From the NCBI GenBank assembly GCA_029717555.1, contig JAMDHS010000024.1:62001-126000 (forward strand): a stretch of 64,000 nt of DNA, read 5' to 3'. Origin of the DNA: Peribolospora baueri (Eukaryota; Basidiomycota; Peribolosporomycetes; Peribolosporales; Peribolosporaceae). Numbering within the stretch: position 1 is the stretch's first letter; each line of letters opens with the position of its first letter. The notes beneath the pieces are model-generated. The model made no database searches. It had not been told where the DNA came from and was given only the letters and a program-made list of their open reading frames with translations. A program made the position numbers and the translations under genes. Below are positions 30,052 through 41,839 of the stretch, one piece after another.

Positions 30052-31730
30052 TCAGTACCACCCCTGCGGCTGAGCCGCACCGGAAACGTCGTCGCGCCTG
30101 GGACGCGCGGCAGCTTGCTGCTGGTATTTCGTCTGACTGCGCAGCCTGAGGCCGGATCATCAGGACGAGGATGGAGAGAAAAAAGAGAGATAGAAGACGT
30201 GGTCAGAGCGCCTGCTCGCCCGTAGACGAAACGAATGCATTTACCCGAAAACACGAAGCTGGCCGGCCGAAACTGGCACGCTGACTACTCACATCCTGTC
30301 CGATCCATGGACGGCCCTGTTGGTATCCCCGCCGGGCGTCCCTGCGCCGTCGTCGTCTGCCTGAGCGATGACCTTGCGGCGGGGCATGGCGTGAGGCTGG
30401 CTGGGCTGCTTGGCGATCTGGGGCGCGGGGGCGACGACGGCGGCGGCGGCAGCGGCGACGGCCGAGTCCTTGTGCTCGTCCGTGGCCGTGCGCTGGGGCG
30501 AGCGCTGCTGCTGGATGGACCAGTCGAAGACGTAGTCGTACTGGAAGCCCTCGCGAACGAAGAGATCGCGAAAGAGCTTGCGAAGGTAGGAGTAGTCGGG
30601 CTTATCGTCGAAGCGAAGGGAGCGGCAGCAGTTGAGGTAGATGGCCATCTCCGAGGGGAAGCCACGGCAGAGGACCTCGGTGGGCGTCGTCATCTTCTTC
30701 TCCATGATGCGGTCGTACTTCTGCTTCTTTGTGGCGGCTTTGAGACCTTGCCAGGGAAGAGATCCGCGGAGGAAGTACATAAGGACGTAGCCAAGCGACT
30801 CGAGGTCGTCACGGCGGGATTGCTCTACAGAGAGGGGGGGATGGGGTGAGCGAGGCGGAGAGGGAGCGTGGGCACGTAGGAACGGGAAGACTCACCGACA
30901 CCCAGGTGGGTATTGATGGACGTGTACCTGGCCGTACCGGTGAGGTTCTTGTTCTCCCTGTAGGGGATGTGCAGGTGCGTCTTAGGGTCGCGGTACTTCT
31001 TTGCGAGACCAAAGTCGATGATGTTGACCTGGTTGCCGCGCTTGCCAATACCCATGAGGAAGTTGTCGGGCTTGATGTCGCGGTGGATGAAGTTGCGGCT
31101 GTGGATGTACTCGATGCGGGAGATCTATGGAGGGGAAAGGGAAAGAGAGGGTAAGCCGAGGGAGGGGTGAGAAAGTGGTGAGGCGGCTACCGCGGCGGTA
31201 CGCACCATCTGGTCGGCGAGGAGGAGGACGGTCTTGAGGCTGAACTTGCGGTTGCAAAAGTTGAAGAGGTCCTCGAGGGAGGGGCCGAGGAGATCGAGGA
31301 CCATGGCGTTGTAGTCGCACTCCTGGCCGTACCATCTGACAAAGGGGACGCCGACGCCTCCGGCGAGGGTCTTGTAGACCTTGGCCTCATACTCGAGCTG
31401 GGGATGCTTTGCCTTTACGCTCTCGAGCTTGATGGCGACCTCTTCGCCGGAGATGATGTTGATGCCGAGGTAGATGTCGCCGAAGGAACCCGAGCCGATC
31501 TTTTTTCCGATGCGGTACTGATGAAAGGAGGAGCGGAGGGTTTATCAGTCGGACTGCGACGTCCTCTTCGTCTGTCTCGGACAGAGAGAGCCAACTTACC
31601 CTGAGAACGGGGATGCCGAGGAGGCGAAGGAGAGACGGAGAGGGTGAGCATTTTCATTTCATTTCTTTTCGGATGGCGACGACGACTATGGGCAGGCCGC
31701 TACTCACTTCCCGCCCACGCGAAGATCCAT
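30052..31730 (-). CDS. Casein kinase 1 (delta/epsilon, Hhp1-like) with a predicted one-base exon
   Basis: Ser/Thr kinase of the CK1 delta/epsilon group. Exons: 31730-31708, 31600 (one base), 31517-31206, 31124-30896, 30824-30293, 30145-30052; total 1191 nt, 396 residues. It starts [20 protein letters not shown], aligning residue for residue with human CK1 delta, with P-loop GSGSFG, Lys38, catalytic [10 protein letters not shown] (Asp128), [20 protein letters not shown] and [20 protein letters not shown]. The kinase core ends at [10 protein letters not shown] and is followed by an Ala/Gln/Arg-rich tail ending QPQGWY. Exon 1 ends GGGAA before GTGAGT and the next kinase exon begins TACCGC after TCATCAG, so one extra base is needed; TTCTCAG-G-GTAAGT supplies it. 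Likely roles (cell cycle, morphogenesis, clock-like control) come from the family. Confidence 0.95.
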
Positions 31731-32241
31731 GGCCGGACGGGGTGGTGAGGGCGGACGGGAGGGGAAGGCTTGATGGGGGGGCAGAGGGGGACTGCGAATG
31801 GAGGAGGGGTGTGCGAAGGGCGAGACGGGCGGCTCGAAGATAGGCGGGGGAGAGAACTGTTCGATGGGCGGCCAAGGAGGTAGCAGCGGTGGGGGAGGGA
31901 AAGCTTGGAAGAGGGGAGCAGGGACGGGCGAGATGGGCGAGGGTGGGGCTGCGGGAGGGCGAGCGAGGGGACGCAAGGGGCGAGGCGTGGATGGATAGAG
32001 GATAGGAGTAGCGTGACGGGGATGGGGACGGGTGTAAGCGGAGGGAGCGCAACGCCGAGTAGGGCAGACGTTGGGAGGGAGCGGGACGAGGGATGCGTGA
32101 GCTGGGGCCAAGGACGTCGACGACGACAACGACGATGCGAGGAGCGAGGAGCGCGCGGGTAGAGGCTTGTGGCGATGATGGAGGATGAGTTGGGAGGGAG
32201 TACAAAGGTCGTTTGTGTCGAGTTCGTGTCCGTGATCGTGA

Positions 32242-32242
<1 letters not shown>

Positions 32243-32299
<57 letters not shown>
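32243..32299. repeat. (GTGTTC)n hexanucleotide array
   Basis: About nine nearly perfect copies of GTGTTC on the plus strand, roughly 510 to 570 bp upstream of the casein kinase 1 start, flanked by variant GTGATC units. Confidence 0.9.
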
Positions 32300-33014
32300 C
32301 GTGTTCGAGTTACGAGTTCGTTGTTCACTCGCCCTTTTCGTCCGTCGTCGGTGCGTTGTCGCACGCCACGCTCGCTCGCTCACACGCACGCCCGCCCGCG
32401 CACGCACTCCCTTCACTCACTCACTCACTCACCTGTCGTCAGAGCAGCGCGAACCGCGATCCCAGAGTCGAGAGCCCGAGGGCGGTGGGGAGAGTAAGGG
32501 CGGTGAATGGTGGAAGAGGGGAGGGGAGGGAGGGAGGGAGGGAGTGGAAGCGGAAGGAGGGAGTGAGTGGGAGTGGAAGAGGGAGTGGCTGGCTGACTGG
32601 GTTTGGCTCGCTGGGCTGGCTGGTGGTTGGCTGGCGGCTGACTGGGCGGCGACGATGTGGGAGGCGACGACGAGCGACGGAGACGGACGACGGGACAGAC
32701 AGACGGACGGAGATGGGGGAGAGAGAGACGGGAAGAGAGAGAGAAAGGGAGGGGCGAGGAGAAAGACTGTCTAGACAGCCAGACGAAAAGAAAAGGAAAA
32801 AAGGGCCGATAACAAAAAGGAGCCAGCCTTTTCAAACTACACAGGGGAGAAAAGAAAAAGGCCCGCCCAAGCCCAAGCCCGCCTGGCCCGGCCCAGCCAA
32901 CCGCAACAACGCACGCCGACGCCCGGACCGCGCCTGCCAATCGCCCATCGCCCATCGCGCGCTCCGCCACTCGCCGCAGCCGCCGGCCCGCGGACTCAAG
33001 CGGCGATACCGCCC

Positions 33015-37960: not shown

Positions 37961-39574
37961 GCGCAGATTCATCTATGGCCGGCTCCAACAATCCGTATCT
38001 GCCTATGCGGCACAGCGTAAGGGAGACTCGGCGTATCTACGCCGTGCCCAGGAGATAGGAGATAGATGGACAGGCGGTCGTCGGTGGCGTTCCGCCATCA
38101 CAGCCGTCTCCGCGTCTCTTCTCTCTCCTGTAGATTGCACGGGGGGTGGCTGCCATATGACGGACAGAGGACACCGCGCCATCCACGCCTGGATAAGCAA
38201 CACTGCCGTGTTGCTTGCCTGGCGCTGTGGTGCCACGGCCCGACGGCGCCAAGAGATCTCGCTAGTGTAAGCCGTAACGATATGCAATGGTGTCCCTGAC
38301 GATTGCGAGGAGGATGGGACGGGCTGAGGCGGAGGAACGTGAAGGAGACGAGCGAGCGCTCTTGACTCTCGCTTGGGGGCTCCACGAGAACGAGACGTTG
38401 GTTCGACAGACGTGGCTGGAAAGGCCGGGGGCGGCGAGCCTCGGAGTGAACGGCGGGCTCTACTCTATCTGCTTGCTCTCACCCTACCCACGCAACGCAG
38501 CACCACTAAACAGAAGTCAGCCATACAACACGACACCGCCCGTATAGATCCACGTGCATTCGGGCACACACTGCACACTGACTGACTGCGGCAGCGGCGA
38601 TGTCCGTGGATTGATGTTTGATCAAGGGAACGAGAAAAGATTGGAAAGAAAACGCGTCTGATACCGCCGCGGCTCTTCTTTCCTCGGCCGTTTGTCGGTG
38701 GCTAGGCCAGTCTCACTCTCGAGAATCAATCTGGCGAATCCGTCGTCGGTCGTCGTCGTTCTGGCTGTGCTTGCTTTGTCCTCTGCCGTGCGTGCTGTTG
38801 ATGCGCATGCATCCATCGCATCGACATACTTCCTTCCCGACCCCCTCCGTCGTCCGTCGTCCATCGCCCGGCGTCCGGCGTCAGGCGTCACTTATCGCCT
38901 CGCTCGCTCGTCCCTGACCGAGCAAGCCGGTGGGACCAGATCGGCCGGCGATAATAAATGACTGCCTGTGCGGACGCGAGCGAGCGAGCGGGCGAGCGAT
39001 AACTCTTGACTCGGCGCGGCCGTCCGACTGATGAGCGACTCGCCGATCCGCCACCAACGTTCTTTTTTTCTTTATCAAATCTATCAGTCCCGTTTTCTCT
39101 CTCTTCTCCGCCCGACCGCTTTCTTTTCCTCCTCTCCATCCCATTTTCTTTCCTTCGTCCGCCGCTTTTTCTTTTCATCCTTCCCCTCCCCCTCTCCACC
39201 ACCCTCTTCGCCCTCGCCTCGTCGCCGCAACCCATCCTTCGCCCACCTTCCCCCCTATCTGCCATCCTCTCTTCCTATCAACCTCGCTTTTCTCTCTTCG
39301 CCCGCGCCCCCGTCGCCTCGCTTCCGCTGACGTGTCCTCCTTCTCGCCCCTCCCAGCCGCACGCCCACACATAGATACTGCCCCTCCCCCCCGTTCCAAT
39401 TGTATCCGCGTCTTCCGATGCTCCACCTCCTCGCTTTCGACCATTATCGCTAGTCAGGATCGACTCTTACTCCGCTCCATCCTCTTCACGACCCCGCTTC
39501 TCGTCGCCTGGGCCGCCGACACCATCTACCCGCCTCTCTCTTTCACATCCTCAGACTCTACCGCGCCCTCCCCG
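37961..39574. other. Intergenic region and long pyrimidine-rich leader of the GATA gene
   Basis: 1.6 kb. From about 39060 to 39330 the plus strand is strongly CT-rich, typical of a fungal promoter or leader. The GATA reading frame is open upstream to 39332 without an ATG. No other gene seen. Confidence 0.5.
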
Positions 39575-41839
39575 ATGAGTCCTCAGGCCTCTTCTTACGG
39601 CACTCCTTCGCCCTCTCGCATGGACGGCATCCAGCCAATCTACCCCGACGACGCCTCCCACCACCCATCTCCAAGCCACGACGCCTCGCGCGACGCCTCC
39701 CCTGACCGACGCGCGTCCCGATCGGACGGCAAGGTGGAGGATGGACAGCCCAAGACCAGTCCGGGCGCCCTCGCCGGCGGGGGTCAGCCCATCTGCTCCA
39801 ACTGCCAGACGCAAACCACGCCGCTTTGGCGAAGGGACGGCCGCGGCGGACTGCTCTGCAACGCTTGTGGCCTCTTCGTCAAGCTTAAAGGCACGCCGAG
39901 GCCGTTGAGTCTCAAGACGGACGTGATCAAGCAGAGGAACAGGAGCAGCAAAAATGCCAACGCCGTCAACGTCGGTCAGACCGACGGCTCCCCTTCGGCC
40001 GCGGTGGGCAAGGCAGGCAAGGCGTCCAAGTCAAGGGGTGGCGGCGCGTCGAGAAAGCGCACGTCGCCCCAGGCAAACAAGATGGCTACGTCGTCCGCCG
40101 TCGCCGACAGCAACGATCCCTACAACTCCTCCTCCAGGCCGCCGAGCCCGGCGAGCAGGAAGAGGGAGCGAGACGTGGCGCCCGAAGCCCGCTGGTCTTA
40201 TCCCGGCCCTGCGTCTCCGGAACCCCGTTCCGACTACGCTGGCGACCGCGCGGCCCCTTACGCGTCGCCCTTTTACCCGGCACCGCTCATACCAGGTCAG
40301 CAGCGCCCTACTTGGTACCCACATCCGCCCCCGCGCGGCGGCTTTGCCTACGACGAACTCGGTTCCTCCTACGCCCCTTCCTACGCCAGTCGATCCAGCA
40401 CGCCTCACGCCAGCCGGCCGGGAAGCGCCGAGGGCAGGTATCCGCCATCAGCTTACCCGTCCTCTTACCATGCCCACCTTGGTTATCCCCCCGCCGGTCC
40501 TTTGAGCGCGCCCTCCGCTTCGTTTCCCCATCACTCCCCGCCCCATTCAGATTGTTTGCCGCTGCCGTCGTCAGCGAGCGCCCAACCGCTCACACATCAT
40601 GCAGGGGAGATGAGCAAGGCGCAAGGCGAATCGCCTATCCATCTGCCGCCGCTCAATTCGCTCAGCGGCGGTGGCGGCGGCGTCCCGTCGCCGAAAGGCC
40701 CGCCTTCTCACGTCGAAGGGGAGAGCGTTGTGCTTCCGCCTCTGCGCCACGCCGTCATGGCCGCTTCCACCGACGCTGGCCATCCTTTACCCTATTTGCA
40801 CTCCGCTCCCGCTGATGGCCGGCAGGAATATTATTCTGCTCAGTACCCCGCTAGGCCGCCCTCTCCTCAGGCGTCGTTTGTAGCGACGACGCGAGCGGGC
40901 GTGGTGCCGAGGTCGTCGAGCCTGTCCGGTATACGGGACCGCCACCGGATGCCGTACTCGTCATCGTCCGATTTCGCGCACCACGCCCTCCACCACGGCA
41001 TCTCCAACGAACGTGGTCGGAGCGTTGGACGCTCGGCGAGCGCCAATCATTCGCCTACTGACCGGACCGCGCGTCTAGAGTCCCCGTTGCGCTATCATCC
41101 CTACGACGGCCACCCCGCGAGCTGGGCTGCGAGGAGGCGGCGCAAGGAAGGGCCGCCGTCGCTGGTCGCAGAGGATGAGCGGGACGTGCCAGCGCTGCGA
41201 TCCGCCGTGGACGGCATTCGGTTGGAGAGCGAGGCACAGGCCAGCGCGCTCGGCCTCGGTCCCACGTTGCAGAGAGAGGAAGACGCGATGCAGGGCGTCC
41301 GGCCGGAGGGCGGGAGCGGCGCCAGCGCCAGCCGGACGCGATCGAGCTCCGTGCTCTCCGTCCATTCCCTATCTCACCACTCTGCCGCTTCGTACTTGCT
41401 CCAAGGCACGCCGAGCGAGCTGGCCGGTCGGAGCTTGCCGCGGTCGCGCAACTCGTTCAGTCGAGCCGGCTCGCCCGCCGATACGTCTTGGGACGCATCT
41501 GTGTCCCGAGCTCCCTCCGTCGGCCCTTCCGAACTCACTGCGTCCTCCATGTTGCACCCGACGCACCGTGACCAGCTCAAGCACCACCATCCCCATCATC
41601 ACTTCCCGACGGACGCGGGCGTCGAAGGAGGCACACTCTCGTCTGGCGGACCCAAGGAGTGCGAGATGGAGAGGCTGAGGGCGAGGGTGAGGGAGCTGGA
41701 GCTGGTCAACGAGCTGTTGAGGATAAGGATCGACGAGCTGGAGAGGGGCCGCCGCACCGGAGCTGGAGCTGGAGCTGGAGCCGGGGTGGCCGGAACGGGA
41801 GTCGGGGGGTGGAAGAGGCGCGGGAGATCTGTAGACTAG
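39575..41839 (+). CDS. GATA-type zinc-finger transcription factor with C-terminal coiled coil
   Basis: Intronless gene, 2265 nt, 754 residues. One GATA finger, Cys74-x2-Cys77-x17-Cys95-x2-Cys98 ([19 protein letters not shown], then LLCNACGL), is followed by the basic [18 protein letters not shown] tail that contacts DNA. This is the fungal nitrogen/metabolism subtype. The long middle is Ser/Pro/His/Tyr-rich and disordered. Near residue 695 a heptad-like segment ([20 protein letters not shown], then IRIDELERG) predicts a coiled coil, then a Gly/Ala repeat. One finger plus a C-terminal leucine zipper is the layout of the Dal80/Gzf3/AreB repressor group, so a negative nitrogen regulator is plausible but not proven. 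The start at 39575 is the first ATG in frame. Confidence 0.88.

Follow-up and report, generated by a model that had tools for sequence, protein, structure and literature searches.

A very probable one-nucleotide exon at codon 8 of casein kinase 1 in a fungus grouping with Ustilaginomycotina

How does a fungal casein kinase 1 (CK1) gene keep its reading frame when the first exon and the next long one do not fit together? On the minus strand of the window (the whole stretch of 64,000 nucleotides analysed here), positions 30052–31730 encode a CK1 delta/epsilon-type kinase (HRR25/hhp1) in six exons (see table). A direct GT-AG join of the end of exon 1 (GGG-AA) to the start of exon 3 (TAC) is one base out of frame, and the 190 nt that separate them contain CTCAG/G/GTAAGT at 31605–31594. 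The single base G31600, with AG upstream and GT downstream, lies between two complete introns whose size is ordinary when set beside 38 homology-based introns of this genome; it is required for the frame and completes the conserved codon 8. We conclude with high confidence that the base at 31600 forms a constitutive exon of one nucleotide in the CK1 (HRR25/hhp1) gene of a fungus grouping with Ustilaginomycotina, and splicing very probably runs through G31600, judging from the DNA sequence. The original prediction had exon 1 encode MDLRVGG plus AA before a GTGAGT donor (31702–31707), placed the TACCGC exon after TCATCAG (31518–31524), one base off frame in a direct join, and let G31600, between introns of 107 and 82 nt, restore AAG-TAC (Lys-Tyr). 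Rereading of the minus strand and recomputation confirmed these positions, the lengths and the frame gap; the six exons again sum to 1191 nt, or 397 codons with the stop counted, giving 396 aa.

Features of the CK1 gene, with positions in the window
Feature	Position	Strand	Length	Sequence	Basis
Coding exon 1	31708..31730	-	23 nt	MDLRVGG + AA of codon 8; ends in phase 2	
Intron 1	31601..31707	-	107 nt	GTGAGT...CTCAG; donor GTGAGT 31707-31702	
One-nucleotide exon (very probable)	31600	-	1 nt	G, third base of Lys8 (AA+G)	read and recomputed
Intron 2	31518..31599	-	82 nt	GTAAGT...TCATCAG	splice-site scoring
Exon 3	31206..31517	-		YRIGKK...LLADQM; begins TAC CGC (Tyr-Arg)	homology
Intron 3	31125..31205	-	81 nt	GTGCGT...CATAG	
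Exon 4	30896..31124	-			
Intron 4	30825..30895	-	71 nt	GTGAGT...TGTAG	
Exon 5	30293..30824	-			
Intron 5	30146..30292	-	147 nt	GTGAGT...CTCAG	
Exon 6	30052..30145	-		with stop codon	

The identity of the kinase rests on its match to solved CK1 delta/epsilon structures (E about 6e-166). Residues 1–292 align gap-free to the two best solved chains listed, CK1 epsilon and CK1 delta, and the claimed N-terminal match holds as well. The counterparts at codon 8 read VGNKYRLG in CK1 epsilon and VGNRYRLG in CK1 delta, with Lys or Arg at position 8. A search of NCBIfam returned only bacterial and archaeal kinase models, far under their cut-offs. The same genome holds a second, more distant CK1-like kinase (G000:C134:82049-82216; 57% identity over 56 residues). 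Upstream of the CK1 start codon, at about 32240–32300 of the window, lies a CGAACA-type short tandem repeat, presumed to be in the 5′ untranslated region or in an intron within that region. Further along the window, an open frame of 934 aa on the plus strand (39035–41839) carries a GATA zinc finger and matches an Asd-4-like model weakly, below the cut-off.

Splice sites were scored with an intron model trained on this genome from adjacent exons that match CCT chaperonin and actin family members; 5 of the 73 exon matches did not go into it. Among 45 neighbouring exon pairs, one was without an acceptable GT-AG solution and six failed the score or residue-count test, leaving 38 introns of 61–264 nt (median 96.5; 37 of them at most 165 nt); because GT-AG was required of each, this set says nothing on non-canonical borders. 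Lengths of 107 and 82 nt fit it. Donor 1 (GAA/GTGAGT) scores at least as high as 28 of the 38 training donors, and acceptor 1 at least as high as 30 of the 38 acceptors, rising to 36 once intron 2 is removed (TCTCAG/GT). The score of donor 2 equals or exceeds that of 18 training donors, and of 32 with intron 1 removed (AAG/GTAAGT); acceptor 2, weaker than the average, equals or surpasses only 9 of the 38. Both introns have their own donor, branch-point-like site, pyrimidine-rich tail and acceptor: the branch-point-like site is CTCAC in intron 1, 44 nt from the 3′ end and an imperfect CTRAY, and CTGAT in intron 2, 27 nt from the 3′ end.

Within the interval, seven GT-AG microexons could bring the two exons back into frame with no stop codon. 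The top score, 15.5 bits, belongs to the one-base exon, and the runner-up, of 46 nt, reaches 4.4; the one-base exon is also the sole candidate with good sites and the sole one adding no residues, which supports the reading first proposed. Sequences simulated from intron composition (200,000) yielded a one-base site equalling or outscoring the observed one at a rate of 6.5e-5, and YAG[AG]GTRAGT arose at a rate of 1.7e-4 in another 200,000 simulated intron-like stretches. Over both strands of the window YAGNGTRAGT occurs once (shuffle mean 1.01), a count that is not unusual, and this lone site sits exactly where one base is needed. Across the 22.1 Mb genome we counted 65 occurrences of CAGNGTAAGT on both strands (151 of the reversed control pattern) and 330 sites of CAGNGTGAGT (reversed control 240).

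The original prediction had also named an alternative, in which the 190 nt form a single intron with a non-canonical border (an AAG/TG donor or a CA/G acceptor), removed in one step, the CAG-G-GTAAGT being coincidental. The protein would be the same, and mature mRNA alone cannot separate this from a one-base exon. Such an intron, however, requires both a non-canonical border and a coincidence of roughly 1e-4 that would stay unexplained; it would be longer than 37 of the 38 homology-based introns, and canonical GT and AG lie one base away at its two borders. We regard it as very improbable.

A screen for further one-base exons covered 30 of the 65 CAGNGTAAGT sites (loci L043–L072), scored by a combined codon-usage and splice-site parse that succeeded for 23 of the 30. 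The CK1 site ranked second, and its second acceptor was set at 160 nt, not 82; the method thus misplaces even the CK1 case, and the screen of 30 CAGNGTAAGT sites neither finds nor excludes further one-base exons. Two loci, the best scorer L067 (which we take to be Rab GDI) and L045 (presumably UDP-glucose dehydrogenase), were rejected as one-base exons, each being an ordinary exon end with CAG coding. Viral contigs searched for fungal CK1 DNA gave nine pattern matches, with no relative among them.

The gene models of related fungi bear on the same codon. In a quick tree, built without bootstrap from the window protein and 33 of 170 CK1 proteins, the window CK1 falls in a 16-row set otherwise containing only Ustilaginomycotina, including three rows without a taxon name (SH-aLRT 97); none of its named relatives is close, identity reaching 85% at most. 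A census of the K-Y border divided the 170 rows into 12 named Ustilaginomycotina, 22 further rows assigned to that group by judgement, 8 long top rows that were set aside, and 128 others. VGGKY is not intact in 11 of the 12 named Ustilaginomycotina models, Ustilago loliicola (P0014) being the only clean one. All 12 are intact at DQM/ISR and LGV/EQSRR, the sites of window introns 3 and 4, and K-Y is intact in 125 of the 128 other rows. A comparison with related species had been proposed as a check of the one-base exon; made here on gene models, it shows damage at codon 8 in those 11, a clean model in U. loliicola and some kin with no intron there. Five of the damaged models are without the MDLR start, which may merely reflect a 23-nt first exon that is hard for gene callers. 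The other six have MDLR and still fail; a phase-matched ordinary intron should have been joined cleanly by these callers.

These six fail in different ways. The Exobasidium model reads GGK-VSPSIVTLC-YRIG, its K-V-S being as expected if an exon were begun at the acceptor of intron 1 and run through the G into a GTNAGY donor; the window's own read-through at this point is K-V-S-W-L-S. That of Pseudozyma flocculosa (GGK-AKAVALTR...APIQ-YRIG) has no V after K, so no GT donor after the G is shown there. Malassezia caprae has GGK-YVLENV-YRIG, in which K-Y-V would fit a phase-2 donor AA/GTAYGT provided that Lys is AAG, and the Asn of M. vespertilionis (GGN-GTFTDSCR-YRIG) would fit AA joined to a foreign base. 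The models of Jaminaea and Malassezia sp. CBS 17886 both read MDLR-YRIG. Among the 22 assigned rows, two read K-Y straight through, two have a 7-residue insert, 12 start MQ-YRIG and six start downstream; Q-Y is found in these 12 MQ-YRIG rows, among them P0111, which the tree places with Malassezia, and also in the models of M. yamatoensis and M. cuniculi. P0009, beside Exobasidium in the tree, reads K-Y straight through, its contig being genomic or transcript.

Two further patterns were seen in these rows. P0049, which groups with Malassezia, and P0056 have one open frame, GGK-VRSELTQ-YRIG, with a 21-nt in-frame insert at the same codon border that starts with GT and ends with CAR; this is perhaps a shrunken or exonised intron 2 left after loss of intron 1. 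Microbotryomycetes CK1 models (Rhodotorula, Sporobolomyces, Leucosporidium, Microbotryum and others; P0020, P0028, P0036, P0065, P0076, P0087, P0092, P0136 and P0168) are damaged at another spot, as in GSGSVRDIYLG and KKIGSDIYLG, a pattern suggesting that a second tiny exon, roughly 6 nt long, has been missed there.

An assembly or sequencing error, with one G missing at the border of a gene that has one ordinary intron, would produce exactly such a frame gap. It too would need the coincidence of roughly 1e-4, exons 1 and 3 align gap-free right up to both borders, and no fault in a single assembly could make the gene models of further species and genera break down at this point too; we give this explanation very little credence. 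A donor within exon 1 (CGC/GTGGGC) would dispense with any extra exon and give an in-frame MDLR-YRIG lacking VGGK, the annotators' choice in two of the 12 named relatives (Jaminaea and Malassezia sp. CBS 17886), but it scores no better than one of the 38 training donors and drops a segment that aligns in the solved CK1 chains and, as the loose pattern VG-G/N-K before Y, is present in 125 of the 128 other CK1 rows, so that we find it scarcely credible.

Damage at this same spot in related fungi is a hint that the tiny exon dates back a long way and has gone unnoticed. With exon 3 as the sole query, short frames were returned, and 11 of the 120 matches listed share at least 102 of 104 residues; these short frames run on into intron 3 and therefore appear to be unspliced DNA. 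Four of the 11 near-identical frames have Q before Y, the phase-0 CAG/TAC acceptor found in the window, and the other seven are uninterrupted over 12 residues at codon 8, with no intron there. None of the 11 has the R before Y that a phase-2 acceptor would leave. Within the group, an exon 1 ending in phase 2 and an exon 3 starting in phase 0 thus appear separately; in combination they need one extra base. The seven intron-free frames, P0009 and U. loliicola run contrary to a simple picture, and such a mixed pattern would fit loss in some lineages as well as gain in several. On balance, this protein-level comparison tips us slightly towards a one-base exon, or at least an intron pair one base apart, that was ancestral to Ustilaginomycotina, was kept in an essential kinase by Exobasidiomycetes and Malassezia, disappeared together with its introns from other lineages of the group, and is misread in most public annotations retaining it.

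Translation gives 41 residues and then a stop if G31600 is skipped, MDLRVGGK and then a stop (AAG TGA; 8 residues) if intron 1 is retained, and 78 residues, off frame past the intron, and then a stop if intron 2 is retained. A working kinase thus needs both introns correctly removed, and inclusion of G31600 would be compulsory. We propose two ordinary GT-AG introns one base apart, the first of which would split codon 8 in phase 2 (AA/G) and the second of which would lie in phase 0 immediately past it (AAG/TAC). Factors that bind an overlapping acceptor and donor should exclude one another. Since the intron 1 acceptor overlaps the intron 2 donor and the two should not both be bound at once, we infer stepwise removal, with the two introns leaving consecutively. 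As both are short, intron definition would suffice, as has been proposed for the one-base exon of APC11 (PMC4674806). Whichever intron leaves first would improve its partner's site, by rebuilding AAG/GTAAGT (intron 1 out first) or TCTCAG/GT (intron 2 out first); either order would work, and the data choose neither. Stepwise removal predicts an intermediate without intron 1 only (GGGAAGGTAAGT) and one without intron 2 only (TTCTCAGGTACCGC). The mature mRNA should carry GGGAA-G-TACCGC, and GTGGGCGGGAAG before TACCGC would be incompatible with the upstream donor in exon 1.

Consecutive removal of two adjacent fungal introns, in which the intron 2 donor regains its exonic −1 position once intron 1 has gone, is also what a stwintron would imply, that is, one intron nested within a splice signal of the other and excised in two steps; since donor, branch-point-like site and acceptor are uninterrupted in both introns and the base between them is translated as part of codon 8, that definition does not apply and we think it extremely unlikely here, the difference from a one-base exon being one of name more than of mechanism. 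As to the origin of the one-base exon, codon 8 was likely uninterrupted at first and then acquired two introns at sites one base apart, because other matches listed, apparently from other basidiomycetes, read K-Y without an intron. By analogy with the origin proposed for another fungal gene, it may instead have arisen when a base was lost and a cryptic AGGGT came to the rescue (PMC12940212).

One-nucleotide exons mark the lower limit of spliceosome placement. They have already been published, and the CK1 case would add another gene, in the best-conserved part of a core kinase. If it is shared by a fungal subphylum, such exons can stay stable for a very long time, and the damaged CK1 gene models in Ustilaginomycotina would be explained; the 190-nt two-intron substrate would also be a compact means of testing what the spliceosome does when an acceptor and a donor overlap. 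By title or abstract, the literature searched contained nothing bearing on a one-base exon in CK1, Ustilaginomycotina or Malassezia, nothing relevant on CK1 introns in Ustilaginomycotina or micro-exons in Malassezia, and no fungal 1-nt microexon beyond that of CYP621A.

The plant precedent invoked by the original prediction is in print: APC11 has a published nuclear single-nucleotide exon (PMC4674806; PMC8831610), and further cases are described in plant VPS55 and Fusarium CYP621A. As in Arabidopsis APC11, the CK1 exon would be a constitutive single base between two introns that annotation missed, absorbed into a single exon where the introns are lost, APC11 being described as intronless in most monocots (PMC8831610). 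APC11 differs in being a plant gene with base A, tested by mutagenesis; gene and codon are unrelated to those of CK1. VPS55 has a one-nucleotide microexon, and the APC11 and VPS55 exons are reported from many plants and as absent from reference annotations (PMC8831610); these annotation gaps, together with the intron loss in monocots, are much like the CK1 pattern in Ustilaginomycotina. The VPS55 exon has a conserved GTRAGT donor, the type seen in CK1, and is described as conserved over a wide clade in which N-terminal annotations are wrong. It is alternatively included in some plants, whereas skipping or retention in CK1 destroys the kinase.

Beyond plants, a mitochondrial one-base exon is described in placozoan cox1 (PMC5436844). 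A parallel in core sequence is CYP621A of Fusarium, whose authors count it as the second such case and as the first from fungi (PMC12940212): the core AG-G-GT is identical, and it was likewise detected through two exons one base out of phase in a conserved motif. That exon, in an ascomycete cytochrome P450 of unknown function from one genus, is backed by RNA reads; the CK1 exon, in a basidiomycete kinase, is predicted here from DNA sequence. Fungal stwintrons of type [D1,2] resemble the CK1 arrangement in having two introns with obligatory consecutive removal (PMC5639578). In a stwintron, as described there, the internal intron splits a splice signal with no exonic base between, whereas in CK1 a translated base lies between two intact introns.
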